From Lachnospiraceae bacterium JLR.KK008 (lineage in GTDB: Bacteria; Bacillota; Clostridia; Lachnospirales; Lachnospiraceae), in NCBI GenBank assembly GCA_037015955.1, contig CP143548.1:1978001-2042000 (forward strand): 64,000 nucleotides of DNA, written 5' to 3'. The notes under the pieces are model-generated. The model saw nothing but the letters and a program-made list of their open reading frames with translations. It searched no databases and was not told where the DNA came from. The position numbers were made by a program, and so were the translations under genes. Below, one piece after another: positions 27,865 to 34,189 of this stretch; positions within the stretch are counted from its first letter, which is position 1, and every line of letters starts with the position of its first letter.

Positions 27865-29310
27865 TTAGCCTACCAGCCAGTCATACATTTCCTGATACTT
27901 TTTCGCTGATACATTCCAGGAAAAATCCGTGGCCATCGCTCTGTCCACGATCTTATTCCACTCTCTCTTCTTATCATAATAGATACGCTCCGCATAGCGG
28001 ACAGCATCCAGCATTTCATGCGCATTGTAATTGGTAAAGCTGAAACCAGTTCCTCTGCTCTCATACTCGTTATAAGATTCCACCGTATCTTTCAGTCCGC
28101 CTGTCTCACGAACGATTGGTACCGTACCATAGTGCAGCGCCATCAGCTGACTGAGTCCGCAGGGCTCAAACAATGAAGGCATCAGGAATGCATCACAGCC
28201 ACCGTATATCTTATGAGACATTGCCTCGGAATAATAAATGTTGGCAGATACTTTGCCTGCATATTTCCAGTCAAAGTGGCGGAACATATTTTCGTATTGC
28301 GGATCTCCCGTTCCCAGGACAACAAGCTGAACATTATCCTGACAGAGCTCATCCATTACATAAGCGATCAGGTCAAACCCCTTCTGATCGGTCAGGCGGG
28401 AAACGATACCGATCATAAATGTCTTATCATTCTGATCAAGCCCCAGTTCTTTCTGAAGTTCCCGTTTGTTTTTAATTTTCTCCTTGCGGAAGTTCACCGC
28501 ATTATACGGATAGGGAAGGTAAGCGTCATTCTCCGGATTAAACTCATCATAGTCGATCCCGTTGACAATACCGCGCAGGTCACCCGCTCTGGCACAGAGC
28601 AGCCCGTTTAAGCCCTCTCCATAAAAATCTGTCTTGATCTCTTCCGCATAGGTATCGCTGACTGTCGTGATTGCATCCGCATATACCATACCGCCTTTGA
28701 GCAGATTGGCGTCTTTATAGCATTCCAGTTTATCGGGCGTAAAGAAATAGTCCGGAAGTCCTGTAATCTCCTTCACCGTCTTTACATCCCATTTTCCCTG
28801 GAATTTGAGGTTATGTATCGTCATAACCGTTTTTATGCCATGGTAAAATTCATTCCCCTGAAATCTTTCCTTCAGATACACGGGAACAAGACCTGTCTGC
28901 CAATCATGACAATGGATCACATCCGGTCTGAACTCGATGACGGGAAGAATAGAAAGCACTGCTTTGGAAAAAAACGCATATTTGGTAATTTCCCAGAGGG
29001 TATCATCTCCATAAGGTTTCGGACCGCCAAAGAACTCTTCATTGTCGATAAAGTAAAAAGTCACTCCCTCTACCTGCGCCGTCATAATGCCCACATACTC
29101 ACTCTTATAATGGAAATCCATATAAAAATGAGTCACATATGTCATCCTGTCCTTGACTTCCTGCTTCATACAGGGATATTTCGGCATGACAACTCTTACG
29201 TCAAAAAATTCCTTATCAATACATTTGGGGAGGGAACCTACCACATCGGCCAATCCGCCGGTTTTAATAAAAGGGACCCCCTCTGATGCTGCAAATAAAA
29301 TACGTTTCAT
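27865..29310 (-). CDS. glgA: Glycogen synthase (ADP-glucose)
   Basis: A 481-residue GT5 glucosyltransferase that extends alpha-1,4-glucan from ADP-glucose. The N-terminal KTGGLADVVGSLP (substrate-binding KxGGL) begins at residue 16; HDWQTGLVPVYL and GIDYDEFNPEND follow; the C-terminal GT-B half has PSLFEPCGLSQLMALHYGTVPIVRETGGL with the conserved EPCGL Glu. Length is normal for GlgA. Start fixed at ATG 29310 (MKRILFAASEG) with GAGAGGAT before it: the open frame runs 149 codons further upstream, but only through repeat DNA. The mRNA likely carries a leader of about 500 nt. No other glycogen genes are adjacent. The gene before it encodes a Spo0A-like protein, and glycogen storage often precedes clostridial sporulation. 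Confidence 0.95.
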   Translation of the reverse strand: MKRILFAASEGVPFIKTGGLADVVGSLPKCIDKEFFDVRVVMPKYPCMKQEVKDRMTYVTHFYMDFHYKSEYVGIMTAQVEGVTFYFIDNEEFFGGPKPYGDDTLWEITKYAFFSKAVLSILPVIEFRPDVIHCHDWQTGLVPVYLKERFQGNEFYHGIKTVMTIHNLKFQGKWDVKTVKEITGLPDYFFTPDKLECYKDANLLKGGMVYADAITTVSDTYAEEIKTDFYGEGLNGLLCARAGDLRGIVNGIDYDEFNPENDAYLPYPYNAVNFRKEKIKNKRELQKELGLDQNDKTFMIGIVSRLTDQKGFDLIAYVMDELCQDNVQLVVLGTGDPQYENMFRHFDWKYAGKVSANIYYSEAMSHKIYGGCDAFLMPSLFEPCGLSQLMALHYGTVPIVRETGGLKDTVESYNEYESRGTGFSFTNYNAHEMLDAVRYAERIYYDKKREWNKIVDRAMATDFSWNVSAKKYQEMYDWLVG

Positions 29311-29390: not shown

Positions 29391-29725
29391 TGCTCGCGTG
29401 CTGCGCACGTTCGCACTCTCCGCAAACCTCTTTCGCAGTGCGCTCACGTGCTGCGCACGTTCGCTCGCTTTGCAAACATGTCTTCGCAACCTTCTCTCGC
29501 AGTGCGCTCGCGTGCTGCGCACGTTCGCTCGCTTTGCAAACATGTCTTCGCAACCTTCTCTCGCAGTGCGCTCGCGTGCTGCGCACGTTCGCTCGCTTTG
29601 CAAACATGTCTTCGCAACCTTCTCTCGCAGTGCGCTCGCGTGCTGCGCACGTTCGCTCGCTTTGCAAACATGTCTTCGCAACCTTCTCTCGCAGTGCGCT
29701 CGCGTGCTGCGCACGTTCGCTCGCG
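29391..29725 (-). repeat. 64-bp tandem repeat array in the glgA leader
   Basis: Four consecutive, identical 64-bp units at 29460-29523, 29524-29587, 29588-29651 and 29652-29715, with a 10-base start of a fifth unit on the right. On the left come a diverged 50-bp unit (29410-29459) and a 19-base stub. Each unit holds the hairpin GTGCGC / GCGCAC and the words TTTGCAAA and CGCGAGCG. The period is not a multiple of three, yet all frames stay open, which produces false proteins on both strands. This array, the palindrome and the promoter fill the 541 bases between glgA and the Spo0A-like gene; there is no gene in that stretch. Confidence 0.95.
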
Positions 29726-29851: not shown

Positions 29852-30370
29852 CTAATCTCGATATTGGAGGCGGATTTTATCGGCGATCAGGGCGATAAAT
29901 TCGGAATTTGTCGGTTTCCCTTTTCCGGTGTTGATTGTATATCCGAACATGGCGTCCAGCGTCTCCATCTTGCCTCTGTTCCACGCCACTTCAATGGCAT
30001 GGCGGATTGCACGTTCCACTCTGCTGGAAGTTGTCTGAAATTTTTTGGCGATCGTCGGATAGAGGATCTTGGTAATAGAATTCAGCATCTCCACATCCTC
30101 CACTGACATCATAATCGCCTCACGCAAATATTGATACCCTTTGATGTGCGCCGGCACGCCAATCTCATGGATCATATCCGTCACATCTTTTTCCAGATCG
30201 CGGACCGCCGGCCTGCTGCCTCCGTAAAGTGTCTTTGTCTCCTCCTGCTGTCCCGCCGACGGGACCGTAATCATGATCTGAAACTCTTTATTCGTATGAA
30301 TTAAATCGGAAAGTAATTTGAAAACCTGCTCGTTATCTTTCGTAGCCGCAACACTCAGTTGTTCCATCAT
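29852..30370 (-). CDS. Spo0A-like regulator lacking most of the receiver domain
   Basis: A 172-residue protein. Residues about 60-172 are a full Spo0A effector domain: [35 protein letters not shown], and the recognition helix region [18 protein letters not shown], ending in [17 protein letters not shown], almost as in Bacillus subtilis Spo0A. The first 32 residues ([20 protein letters not shown]...) still resemble the start of a Spo0A receiver (strand 1, helix 1), but ADDN has become TKDN and the rest of the receiver, including the phospho-acceptor Asp and the conserved Lys, is gone. GGAGG lies before tandem ATGs; the second may be used. It has its own sigma-A promoter. It sits one gene from spoIVB, the usual place of spo0A. 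It could be a phosphorylation-independent regulator, a competitor of full Spo0A, or the remains of it. Confidence 0.88.
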
Positions 30371-30421: not shown

Positions 30422-30450
30422 CATTATAAACAGATGTCAATCTACGTTCA
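30422..30450 (-). promoter_or_regulatory. Sigma-A promoter of the Spo0A-like gene
   Basis: Minus strand TTGAAC, 17-bp spacer, perfect TATAAT, followed by about 45 bases of leader and GGAGG before the tandem ATG codons. A promoter this good argues that the gene is expressed and not decaying. Confidence 0.8.
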
Positions 30451-30491
30451 ACTACCATCAATCGCAGAATGCGCGCTAAAACGCCCCTTTC

Positions 30492-32825
30492 CTACAACTT
30501 ACTTTCCAGCTCCTCCAATGACCCATAACCGTAAAGTCTTGCAGAATTGCCGATGATCTCTTCTGCCAGGTTCCTTCCTTCCATGCACAGAGCCGCGATA
30601 AACCTCCCGTACAAATCCAGCGTTCTGTCGGAATACGTCGAGATTTCCCCACGTAAATAAGTCTCATAAGAAGTATTGTACAGACTGTCTTCATACGTGT
30701 GTATACTTCTCGCAAGTCTGGCAGCCTTCGGAAACCGTTCTGCGCATGTCTCCATCCATCCGACCTGGATCTTAACGATCTCTTCAATAATCGCCTTTTT
30801 TTCCTCCGGAATCTCCGCGAAGTGGCCGGAGATGTCCACATAGCCTTCCGGATCCGTACTCTCCATCATCCTCCCATATTTCTCCGCAATCAGATTCCAT
30901 CCCCGCGCGTCGGCCTCCACAAAGTCCTCGATGTAACTCTGCAGCATCGGCACCGTCCAGGCCAGATACTGGCTCTTTCGCATAATGGAAAATGTATTCC
31001 AGTCATCCTGACAATCAGCCCGGCCGCCAATATTCTTCACCTGATCAAATGACTGCCATTCCAGGCCGATTAGTCTCCGCATCAGTTCTTCTTTTACTGT
31101 CGACTTGCTCTCTTCCTTCTGGGTAATGCTGTGCAGGATATTGTCCGTGTGATGATCCAGATAATTATCGCTCCCTGTTGTCAGGCTCTGTTTTTTCATT
31201 TCGTCGATAATAAGCGTGACGATAATTTCTATTGTCTGAGGTATCCTCTCATCTCCGACCGGCATGTCGGCAATCGCATTCAATATGTCACCGATGACCG
31301 CCAGCACCGGAAGATGTTCCATTCCTTTGTGCATCCATTTATAAAAAGGCGCATACCTGCGGTTCAGCAGATAGACAATCGACATCGTATGTCTCATAAA
31401 TTCGCCCAGCGCCACTTCCGCCGTCACCTTATCGCCCCTTTGCAGCATCCGGCTATAGTTATACTGTCCCGACTGCGCAATCAGCGCCGCCTCTCTGGCA
31501 ATTTTCTTGATCCGCACTTCCTCCGGATAATGAGCGAGCAACCCTCTTCTGATTCTTGTAAACTCTCCCAGCTCATCCCGGAACACTCTGCCGCTTGTGG
31601 CTGCCGCGAGCTGATAGTCTTCGGCATACAGCCACTGGCTGCGCGATTCCGGCACATCTGAAAACCCGATCAGCTTCTCGTAAAAATCCCCGATCCGGAA
31701 CACACCGACTCTCTTGGGCGCCTTCGGTGTCACTCTGCGGGTAACGCCCATATACGTCTTGGGCAGCCTGTCGTATTCCGCCTGCAGCGCCTCGCCGATC
31801 TCCTCATAGACCGAGTCTGTTAAAAACAGACAAAAACCCGGGCCGAAATCATGATCTCTCGATATTTCGTCATCAAATCCAAGACACTCCGACCCTTCGC
31901 CGACAAGTCCGGCTGCGATATAAGGCATGTAAGACGGAAATTTCTGCCAAAGCATCGGCTCCCCATATTCATGATAAAAAGACTCGCACAGATCAAGTCC
32001 TTTGGCAAACTGTCTGACGACACTGACTCTCCCCGCCATCTGTTCTTCCACTGCGCTTAAATTCTGAGCTACGATTTCATAGGCGGTAGAACGCCCGGTG
32101 TTTTTCTCAATCTCCGCCAGCGCCATTTTATAATATCTGGCCGACTCCTCCAGATTGCCTGCCATATACTGCGCTTCTCCCATCGCAGACAAAGCGCCGC
32201 TGTAATGAAAGTCTTTCTTCTCATCCATCTCAAAAATAGAGAACGCTTTTTGCAGATGATCCATAGCCTCCTCATACCGTCCAAGTTTCAGCAGAGACGC
32301 CGCCAGATTCGTATGTGTGACCGCCGTCTCAATTCTGGCCTCCGCATACGAACTGACGATAGGCAATGCCTTCTCCAGACAGTGACACGCCTCCTCGAAA
32401 TCTCCCATCTCCTGATAGAGCAGACTCATATTATTGTAGAGACTGGCAAATCGGAAATCATTGGCCTCTAATTGATTCCGGTAGATCAAAAGCACAGTCT
32501 GATAGCCGGACATAGACTCGGCCAGTTTTCCGGCAGCCCGGTAAGCATTGGCAATGTTCAGCAGAGAAGTCGCATAGGGTACGCTCCCCCGCATCTGGTT
32601 GCGCTCCAGCACTTCCATGAGCTTATCACAATACAGGCAGCACTTCTCATATTTGCTCACATCCCGCAGGTACCCGATCATCTCATTCAGCAGAGTGATC
32701 AGCGAGCCGTCGTCCTGCGCCTGCACCGCCTGTGCCATCTGATTCTCCAGAAACCCTTCCACCCGGTCCATCTGGTACGTGGCAAACAGTCGGTCAAGCT
32801 CCTGTAATATTTTTTCCATATCCAT
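30492..32825 (-). CDS. TPR - DUF4037 - DUF4125 fusion protein
   Basis: A 777-residue cytosolic protein. TPR helices fill residues about 70-280 (repeats such as YATSLLNIANAYRAAGKLAES, SLYNNMSLLYQEMGDFEEA, VTHTNLAASLLKLGRYEEA). A DUF4037 domain (about 300-560) begins with a nucleotidyltransferase-like SRDHDFGPGFCLFL motif. A DUF4125 domain (about 580-770) has LEWQSFDQVKNIGGRADCQDDWNTFSIMRKSQ. The chemistry is unknown; the DUF4037 motif resembles a polymerase-beta-type nucleotidyltransferase, so transfer of a nucleotide to a partner is possible. Start chosen at ATG 32825, with AGAGGTGA before it. It lies between spoIVB and the Spo0A-like gene, where the two sporulation genes are usually neighbours. 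Confidence 0.8.
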   Translation of the reverse strand: MDMEKILQELDRLFATYQMDRVEGFLENQMAQAVQAQDDGSLITLLNEMIGYLRDVSKYEKCCLYCDKLMEVLERNQMRGSVPYATSLLNIANAYRAAGKLAESMSGYQTVLLIYRNQLEANDFRFASLYNNMSLLYQEMGDFEEACHCLEKALPIVSSYAEARIETAVTHTNLAASLLKLGRYEEAMDHLQKAFSIFEMDEKKDFHYSGALSAMGEAQYMAGNLEESARYYKMALAEIEKNTGRSTAYEIVAQNLSAVEEQMAGRVSVVRQFAKGLDLCESFYHEYGEPMLWQKFPSYMPYIAAGLVGEGSECLGFDDEISRDHDFGPGFCLFLTDSVYEEIGEALQAEYDRLPKTYMGVTRRVTPKAPKRVGVFRIGDFYEKLIGFSDVPESRSQWLYAEDYQLAAATSGRVFRDELGEFTRIRRGLLAHYPEEVRIKKIAREAALIAQSGQYNYSRMLQRGDKVTAEVALGEFMRHTMSIVYLLNRRYAPFYKWMHKGMEHLPVLAVIGDILNAIADMPVGDERIPQTIEIIVTLIIDEMKKQSLTTGSDNYLDHHTDNILHSITQKEESKSTVKEELMRRLIGLEWQSFDQVKNIGGRADCQDDWNTFSIMRKSQYLAWTVPMLQSYIEDFVEADARGWNLIAEKYGRMMESTDPEGYVDISGHFAEIPEEKKAIIEEIVKIQVGWMETCAERFPKAARLARSIHTYEDSLYNTSYETYLRGEISTYSDRTLDLYGRFIAALCMEGRNLAEEIIGNSARLYGYGSLEELESKL

Positions 32826-32862
32826 AACAATCACCTCTGGTAAGAGTATAGCACTTTTCCGC

Positions 32863-34110
32863 TCATCCCTCCAGCATCTCTTCAATAAAAATACCATACC
32901 CTTTGGTGGCATCCTGCACGAATACATGTGTGACTGCACCTACCAGCTTCCCATTTTGCAAAATCGGAGCGCCGCTCATACCCTGTATGATACCGCCGGT
33001 CTCCTCGATCAGTCTCTCGTCGGTGATCTGCAATACGATCTCTCTGTTGATATGTTCCTTATCATAAGTGATGTCCGTGATCTTTACATCATAGAGCTCC
33101 GTATTTTTTCCGTCCAGGCTGCAGAGGATCTTGGCCGGACCAATCCTCGTATCCTGCTTGAGTCCGATCTCCACCGGTGCAAAGAGCGCTTCTTCCTCCA
33201 GCTCCTCTCCGCAGATACCGAAAATACCCTTGTCCTCATTGCGGTCGATGACCCCCAGCAGATTGTCGTCCCCATAATCGATCAATCCTGTCAGTTCCCC
33301 CGGCTTCCCCGCCTCTCCCTTGCGGATCCCGATAATATCCGTATGGTACAAAGAGCCTTTCTGCAGCGCCATCAGTGTACTCGTATCCATATCGTTGATC
33401 CCATGTCCAAGCGCACCGAATCCGCCGTTTCCGTCGATGTAAGTGAGTGTCCCCACGCCCTGGGCGTTGTCACGAATCCAAATGCCGATTTTATAGACCC
33501 CCGCCTGATCTTTGATTGGAACGGTCTTCACATCAAATACTTCCTTACCTCTGCGGATTGTCAGCACAGTATCCATCCCGTCTGTCTCCTGCAGCGACTT
33601 CATAAACATCTTTTTCCCGGTGACATCTTCACCGTTTATCCCCAGAATATAATCGCCGCTCTTCAGTACGTTTTTGGCCGGAGAATATCTGACGCCGTCA
33701 AAACCCGTAAATTCTCCGGTCCCCACGACGAGTACACCTTCCGTCTTCACATAAATACCGACCGGCATACCGACCGGGATCACGGATGTCCCTTCGATCA
33801 CCTGCACATCCACATTTTTTAAAGGTACGAAGCCGAACAGCTTTACATCCATCTCATAACTGTTTTTCTCATTGGCATAAAAGACAAGCGGACGGCTCAG
33901 ACTGACAGGAATCGCTTCCTCGCCGGAAGCACGGATCATCCCCATAGCCGGCAGCTCCAGATTCATTTCCTCTCGTTCCCCTGCGCGGATCTTGATACTG
34001 TCCGGTGTCCTGTGCCAGACAGACAGGTAGACGGCGCAGAGAAGCAGGCATACCGCATTGCCTGCCAGCATATATAAAATGCGGCGGTATCTCCTCCTTA
34101 ACTCCATCAT
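32863..34110 (-). CDS. spoIVB: SpoIVB serine peptidase
   Basis: A 415-residue forespore protease that starts pro-sigma-K processing across the intermembrane space by cleaving SpoIVFA. A signal anchor lies at about 12-32 (YMLAGNAVCLLLCAVYLSVW). A PDZ domain is at about 120-210 (GVRYSPAKNVLKSGDYILGINGEDV). The SpoIVB peptidase domain (about 215-410) has FGALGHGI with the His and GGIIQGMSGAPIL with the catalytic Ser. Start chosen at ATG 34110 after AAGGAAGTGG. It follows recN, as in most spore formers. A CATACTA -10 of forespore type lies upstream, overlapping the recN terminator. Confidence 0.95.
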   Translation of the reverse strand: MMELRRRYRRILYMLAGNAVCLLLCAVYLSVWHRTPDSIKIRAGEREEMNLELPAMGMIRASGEEAIPVSLSRPLVFYANEKNSYEMDVKLFGFVPLKNVDVQVIEGTSVIPVGMPVGIYVKTEGVLVVGTGEFTGFDGVRYSPAKNVLKSGDYILGINGEDVTGKKMFMKSLQETDGMDTVLTIRRGKEVFDVKTVPIKDQAGVYKIGIWIRDNAQGVGTLTYIDGNGGFGALGHGINDMDTSTLMALQKGSLYHTDIIGIRKGEAGKPGELTGLIDYGDDNLLGVIDRNEDKGIFGICGEELEEEALFAPVEIGLKQDTRIGPAKILCSLDGKNTELYDVKITDITYDKEHINREIVLQITDERLIEETGGIIQGMSGAPILQNGKLVGAVTHVFVQDATKGYGIFIEEMLEG

Positions 34111-34135
34111 TCCACTTCCTTTCCACAACAAAAAC

Positions 34136-34161
34136 AAAAAGCATCCTGCAAGATGCTTTTT
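34136..34161 (-). terminator. Terminator of the asp23-recN operon
   Basis: Stem AAAAAGCATC / GATGCTTTTT with a 6-nt loop; the minus-strand 3' arm runs into GTTTTTG. It lies 29 bases past the recN stop and before spoIVB. Confidence 0.85.
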
Positions 34162-34168
34162 TAGTATG
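34162..34168 (-). promoter_or_regulatory. Candidate sigma-G/F -10 box of spoIVB
   Basis: Minus strand CATACTA, the consensus -10 for forespore sigma factors. The -35 side, AAAGTA 17 bases upstream, is weak. It lies right next to the recN terminator, so a transcript starting 6-8 bases downstream begins inside the first arm of that hairpin. Confidence 0.5.
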
Positions 34169-34189
34169 TGAGGAAATATCATTTTTACT

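Follow-up and report, generated by a model that had tools for sequence, protein, structure and literature searches.

A Spo0A deprived of its receiver in the laboratory is active unphosphorylated in Bacillus subtilis, and a free-standing DNA-binding relative of response regulators, GerE of the LuxR/NarL type, acts late in sporulation. Phosphorylation of Spo0A is regarded as the gate to the endospore, and species differ in the route that the phosphate takes, through a relay or directly from kinases (PMC6136694 and PMC11210211, available excerpts). Response-regulator lines that have abandoned phosphorylation are known in the aspartate-less receivers (ALRs), which keep the receiver domain minus its Asp (PMC4395418, excerpt). 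We found no report of a natural receiver-less Spo0A in the available portions of the open-licence PMC literature, including PMC6136694, PMC11210211, PMC8340488 and PMC7924749. Here we describe such a protein from Lachnospiraceae bacterium JLR.KK008, encoded within a 64 000-nucleotide stretch of its genome that was analysed as a whole (the window).

The protein, of 172 aa, matches PF08769 (Spo0A_C) over the whole profile (positions 1–104 of 104, residues 63–166, 159.4 bits) and has no other Pfam domain above cut-off; the Response_reg receiver model gave no match even at E 1. TIGR02875 is barely reached (201.3 against a cut-off of 200), the match starting at profile position 139, and a PDB comparison at E 0.001 brought up two structures of the Spo0A DNA-binding domain, 1FC3 and 1LQ1, and nothing else. 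Profile comparison of 11 short N-termini with nine full-length Lachnospiraceae Spo0A sequences paired residues 1–32 with receiver residues 1–32 (41% identity, E 6.9e-7, probability 92%). What would follow in a receiver, from approximately residue 32 up to the linker, is missing; the phospho-acceptor Asp region has gone with it, as has the last strand's conserved Lys. The acidic pair has lost its first Asp (K in the window protein) and retained its second. The initial annotation was thus right that the DNA-binding half is almost fully conserved, that ADDN has become TKDN and that the phospho-acceptor Asp is missing; its description of the receiver as reduced to the first strand and helix agrees with the homology of residues 1 to approximately 32 and leaves out a strand-like stretch beyond helix 1, the most conserved piece of the remnant. 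Relatives start MEQ, so the second ATG (30367) is as likely a start as the first. A frame-shifted receiver upstream was considered and rejected, as the open frame has just 11 codons ahead of its first ATG and the next gene is 121 bases away from the spo0A ORF.

In its full Spo0A_C match, its conserved 15-residue stretch, the spoIVB gene upstream and the 0A-box promoters at spoIIG and spoIIE, the locus resembles that of Spo0A in B. subtilis and Clostridia (TIGR02875; 1FC3, 1LQ1); it differs in lacking a receiver past residue 32 or so, a phospho-acceptor and a 0A box at the spo0A promoter. Lacking a phosphorylatable receiver, the short protein is not classed as a two-component response regulator: judged from its sequence, it is a Spo0A by descent and DNA-binding domain and not a response regulator by architecture. 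Nor is it an ALR, since the deletion takes away most of the domain past the second strand, not just the Asp. With the laboratory construct it shares a DNA-binding domain freed of receiver inhibition, whereas it is natural and clade-wide, with a selected N-terminal remnant and an altered promoter. GerE likewise puts an output-type domain to work alone in sporulation, but belongs to another family and acts late rather than at initiation.

Table 1. Positions of spo0A, its parts, its neighbours and its paralogues. Coordinates are those of the window unless a locus handle is given.
Feature	Position	Strand	Basis
Short (receiver-less) spo0A	29852..30370	-	172 aa ORF, Pfam and TIGR02875 matches
Putative receiver remnant, 38 codons: strand 1, helix 1, then strand-like stretch	30257..30370	-	homology
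Variable linker	30185..30256	-	dN/dS 0.214
Spo0A_C DNA-binding domain, 15-residue stretch intact	29873..30184	-	Pfam match and alignment
spo0A promoter: GCGAT 30465-30461, TTGAAC 30451-30446, TATAAT 30428-30423	30423..30465	-	pattern search
glgA, downstream neighbour	27865..29310	-	named by eye from sequence
TPR + DUF4037 + DUF4125 protein, 815 aa, between spoIVB and spo0A	30492..32939	-	Pfam
spoIVB, upstream	32863..34182	-	TIGR02860, 353.6 bits (cut-off 305.25)
Mini-Spo0A paralogue, 132 aa, without receiver	L166:6361-6759 (window genome match C1:2772408-2772716)	-	Spo0A_C
Third Spo0A_C protein of the window genome, divergent, 148 aa	L167:6486-6932		Spo0A_C, 48 bits

The gene had been placed at the usual spo0A locus, which spoIVB upstream bears out (table 1), except that one gene, for a TPR/DUF4037/DUF4125 protein, intervenes; glgA lies downstream. 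Among 65 short loci, five have that insertion, and these are the closest to the window protein. Across short loci, glgA follows spo0A in 76 of the 78 with at least 2 kb of downstream sequence; tblastn located spoIVB no further than approximately 4 kb upstream in 25 loci out of 65 and did not find it there in the other 40. A tandem repeat of 64 bp (4.8 copies, 97% matches) occupies 29417–29724, between spo0A and glgA.

We consider it probable that this receiver-less Spo0A, cut stepwise in one Lachnospiraceae clade, persists as a phosphorylation-independent regulator of sporulation, acting on spoIIG and spoIIE and gated by its own expression. The early sporulation genes were compared among 27 near-complete short-form genomes (counting G238, whose Spo0A is described below), 32 full-length genomes and 18 genomes without Spo0A_C. 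SpoIVA (TIGR02836, all 59 matches above cut-off) was found in 26 of the 27, from 20 genera, in all 32 and in one of the 18 (G042), which indicates that Spo0A and sporulation are retained or lost together; there was no match in G182, and the SpoIVA of G173 contains one internal stop. SpoIIE was detected in 26 short-form genomes, with no match in G194. SpoIIGA and SpoIIAA matches were obtained in 20 of 20 short-form (G238 included) and 10 of 10 full-length genomes, although the curated cut-off was reached by none of either group for SpoIIGA, and by none and four, respectively, for SpoIIAA. In all 30 genomes the loci read have sigE beside spoIIGA, and spoIIAB and sigF beside spoIIAA. The window genome itself encodes SigE, SigF, SigG, SigK, SpoIIAA, SpoIIAB, SpoIIGA, SpoIIE, SpoIVA and SpoIVB, the SpoIIAA, SpoIIGA and SpoIIE matches lying below curated cut-offs, together with a candidate sigH assigned by eye and from its neighbours. 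Genes for Spo0E-like proteins, which are phosphatases of Spo0A~P, occur in none of the 27, seven of the 32 and none of the 18; their absence from short-form genomes is weak evidence, because they are rare even in full-length ones.

SpoIIE is a second initiation protein that is trimmed in short-Spo0A genomes, here at L164:4220-5407 (minus strand). None of the 26 matches begins before profile position 410; the N-terminal membrane part is missing from each, and the cut reaches as far in just one of the 32 full-length genomes (G085). The protein measures 387–463 aa in the 18 short-form genomes read and is already shortened to 460–505 aa in many full-length genomes.

The promoters of these genes provided a second line of evidence. 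The exact 0A box TTTGTCRAA was present upstream of spoIIGA in 13 of 20 short-form genomes (G238 included; 0.20 expected from dinucleotide shuffles) and upstream of spoIIE in 13 of 18 (0.28 expected), the full-length figures being 5/9 and 4/10. With one mismatch allowed the excess in short-form genomes was smaller, at 18/20 (4.8 expected) for spoIIGA, 15/18 (4.3) for spoIIE and 3/19 (4.1) for spoIIAA. Regions upstream of spoIIAA, used as the negative comparison for both box and layout, contained no exact box in 19 short-form or 10 full-length genomes (0/29; loci L201–L230), so another factor seems to drive spoIIA in this family. At spoIIGA and spoIIE a 0A-box-like site stands 20–22 bp from a TATAAT or TATACT hexamer: the pattern YGACA-N20..22-TATAMT was found at 19/20 and 16/18 short-form promoters, respectively (G238 included; 0.00 in shuffles), with a 21 bp spacing in 33 of 35, and at 6/9 and 5/10 full-length ones. 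It was absent from spoIIAA in genomes of either form (0/19 short-form). This layout matches the long-spacer sigma-A promoter, the type activated by Spo0A in B. subtilis. In the window genome the boxes read TTTGACAAA at spoIIGA and, with one mismatch that counts against our reading, TATGACAAA at spoIIE. Given how little its DNA-binding domain has changed, the short form most likely recognises these sites. Within the window, three exact 0A boxes were found, no excess over chance (1.64 expected). A second T-G-C, 10 bp past the box, has its G in 19 and its C in 22 of 33 short-form 21-bp promoters, against 3/11 for each in full-length ones, a weak comparison given related, non-independent genomes and the small full-length sample.

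Retention of the early cascade and of Spo0A-type promoters suggests that the short protein is the sporulation regulator itself, and the initial annotation, in proposing a stationary-phase switch separate from the phosphorelay, probably understated its part. The clade could instead be non-sporulating, with short Spo0A kept for stationary-phase or surface genes while the spo genes depart. We regard this as unlikely. In its favour, sporulation genes have gone in places: of ten genomes of the same genus, eight, the window's included, have the short form, and no Spo0A_C at all was seen in G001 (99% complete) and G004 (83%); G001 has lost SpoIVA and SpoIIE as well. SpoIIE is shortened throughout and SpoIIGA and SpoIIAA score below cut-off; the gaps in G182, G173 and G194 also count against our reading. 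A machine-learning predictor called 24 of 24 Lachnospirales MAGs of one set, including an Acetatifactor, non-sporulating (PMC12536801, excerpt), and we found no recorded spores for any clade strain in the available text of open-licence PMC papers on Acetatifactor and Kineothrix. Against this stand SpoIVA above cut-off across 20 genera, the universal SpoIIGA and SpoIIAA matches with their sigma-factor neighbours, and the 20–22-bp layout at spoIIGA and spoIIE, which drift would erase.

A receiver-less protein might also occupy 0A boxes and keep genes off, with sporulation started by something else; the initial annotation had likewise offered a competitor for 0A boxes. The window genome, a single contig of 3 188 748 bases (99.17% complete), was searched with Spo0A_C and yielded three genes: short spo0A, a 132-aa protein (L002/L166) and a divergent 148-aa protein (L003/L167). 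No full-length Spo0A was found. In a re-search of 33 genomes, 28 of them near-complete and 27 of these of short or G238 form, none of the 27 likewise showed a Spo0A of full length whose DNA-binding domain is normal, and a competitor role is not supported. Three (G194, G329 and G080) encode a receiver fused to a very divergent Spo0A_C (38–75 bits), and these regulators count against our reading; they form a Spo0A-like family of 262–278 codons (L304–L307), with the receiver called by Pfam in three of the four and by eye in L307. A further Spo0A_C match of 108–141 bits, in an open frame of at most 205 codons, occurs in 26 of the 27 genomes and could share or assume the role that we assign to short Spo0A. 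Such genes, and the capacity of a free DNA-binding domain to bind without activating, keep a repressive role conceivable. We judge it improbable, as the 27 genomes showed no full-length competitor of normal type and the box sits at −35 with a spacing of approximately 21 bp, a layout common to full-length genomes.

Over 16 independent pairs, the remnant (37 aa) had a dN/dS of 0.033 and the DNA-binding domain one of 0.003; the linker, taken as an internal control and calculated only from pairs of equal linker length, gave 0.214. The remnant is under purifying selection. The gene had been described as not obviously decaying, a view strengthened by this figure, by the occurrence of the short form in at least 109 loci and by the conserved 0A-box promoters at spoIIGA and spoIIE; the same three observations favour the suggestion that the protein is active without phosphorylation, of which it is very probably independent. 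M2, E3, D12, L23, F30, I32, I34, V36 and P37 are invariant in 48 aligned sequences chosen from the 109 loci, some omitted loci varying there (for example at P in L061). We prefer to derive the second strand from receiver strand 2, which is of equal length; the alternative, compatible with the G238 junction, is strand 5. Could a receiver be supplied in trans, so that phosphorylation still acts through this remnant? Its strong selection and the one acidic-pocket Asp that it keeps would suit such a split arrangement, yet its second strand is unlike the receiver strand aligned with it, and we think the idea very improbable. As for an assembly or sequencing deletion, we found nothing in its favour, and we reject it in view of the purifying selection, the single change on the tree and the recurrence of the form in at least 109 loci, whose titles point to many sequencing projects.

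The 109 loci comprise the best 80 of 369 tblastn relatives, all of short form under a query (the short N-terminus) that favours such forms, and 29 loci from further genomes; some share species, and nearly all are labelled Lachnospiraceae where named. Labels among the best 80 of 369 are mostly of MAGs, as Lachnospiraceae or Acetatifactor, with a few Clostridia, Clostridiales, Bacillota or bacterium and one Muribaculum (L108); the cultured strains among them are Acetatifactor muris DSM 23669, Kineothrix sp. MSJ-39 and Lachnospiraceae bacterium 28-4. Record titles name Lachnospiraceae of many animal hosts. A class-wide sample of 392 genomes, whose kin-sorted list includes 18 from the family, showed the N-terminal module in five, all of this family and one with the linker end only. 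In a family sample of 346 genomes (at least 90% complete), 238 have Spo0A_C; among the matches listed, the best open frame is 179–223 codons in 26 genomes (G238 included) and 263–378 in the others. Twenty genomes from 20 other families of the order have best frames of 262–310 codons, so full-length Spo0A is ancestral. No full-length Spo0A was seen in the ten same-genus genomes, and the refuting observation named in the initial annotation, a full receiver here in relatives, was not made.

On a tree of 30 genomes built from SigF, SpoIIAB, SigE and SpoIIE (1021 columns, with good support on 12 of its 27 inner branches), one change separates the short (19) from the full-length (10) genomes, with branch supports of 95/97 and 100/100. 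G238 stands alone between the groups. Its Spo0A (L034) has strand 1 and helix 1 fused in frame to strand 5 and helix 5 (YFMVKPYDPEQMRNRLKNL), the intervening part being gone; among 60 relatives of G238, mostly from other genera, no listed open frame points to another genome of this kind. The simplest history would be a loss of the receiver in steps, and G238 offers a rare view of a response regulator losing its receiver by stages.

The promoter of spo0A has changed too. The near-consensus sigma-A promoter and good ribosome site noted initially are present as TTGAAC-N17-TATAAT (30451–30423) and a GGAGG ahead of the gene, and GCGAT-N9-TTG-N20..21-TATAAT has its single match in the window here. 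The 0A box, scored as TGTCGA, lies no more than 150 bases ahead of spo0A in 19 of 31 full-length genomes, mostly at −49/−48 from the −10 hexamer, and occurs in one of 67 non-redundant short-form promoters (2.1 expected); the G238 promoter also lacks it. Conversely, 51 of 66 short-form promoters have GCGAT in the interval from −55 to −20 (2.07 expected), 49 of them at −38/−37, as do four of 32 full-length ones (L025, L045, L048 and L277), where G238 is counted in the 32 and has no GCGAT. When TGTCGA is followed by TGCG within 12 bases in full-length promoters, the start-to-start distance is 10 in five of seven, one helical turn. We read this as a former tandem Spo0A site whose distal half would have been lost and whose proximal half, GCGAT, would have become fixed in short-form promoters. 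TGCGAT is possibly read by a different protein. Mini-Spo0A was dropped as that reader: three of the four GCGAT-bearing full-length genomes show one Spo0A_C among the matches listed, so the element is independent of this paralogue.

Taken with the promoter evidence, we propose that the receiver was removed in steps and the receiver-less protein retained. Unphosphorylated short Spo0A would bind the 0A box at −35 of spoIIG and spoIIE and activate these sigma-A promoters once its amount suffices. The decision would thereby shift from histidine kinases acting on Spo0A to the amount of Spo0A, with the signal entering via its expression, at transcription from the rebuilt promoter or at later steps. 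The 37-aa remnant would probably serve self-association or the binding of a partner protein. Self-association is our first guess because Spo0A~P dimerises upon receiver phosphorylation, although the accompaniment of dimer formation by phosphorylation in B. subtilis and C. difficile counts against our reading (both PMC11210211, excerpt). More tentatively, this clade of gut Lachnospiraceae may form endospores without Spo0A phosphorylation after a stepwise loss of input from the full receiver through the G238 form to the 37-aa remnant, having swapped the auto-activating 0A box of spo0A for TGCGAT one helical turn downstream and turned the remnant into a new small domain that pairs the protein with itself or with a signal.

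If the clade sporulates, control must lie elsewhere, because the signal-receiving half of Spo0A has been cut off; the gate would have been discarded and the downstream programme kept, and a sporulation decision made by the amount of a regulator alone becomes testable. Surveys of spo0A by gene name or loose similarity could score short-form genomes as spo0A-less or as normal. Some human-gut Lachnospiraceae with sporulation genes are described as having 'lost spo0A' on the basis of Prokka names (PMC11170972, excerpt), and PMC8340488 (excerpt) scored by tblastn at 30% identity.

The further Spo0A_C proteins also deserve mention. Mini-Spo0A is like short Spo0A in having Spo0A_C without a receiver, but has no receiver remnant. 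Of the further Spo0A_C matches of 108–141 bits in short-form genomes, 11 were read and eight contain the stretch QKVERAIRNAIEVSW, and most of 15 loci viewed by eye include GDP-mannose/fucose or glycosyltransferase (glycan synthesis)-like genes. A paralogue in G011 (L308:692-1423), without a Pfam receiver match, has a remnant-like stretch in front of its Spo0A_C by eye. Among the nine further genomes of the genus, five have relatives of the divergent 148-aa protein at 50–56 bits; a shorter match, of 31 bits, occurs in a sixth.
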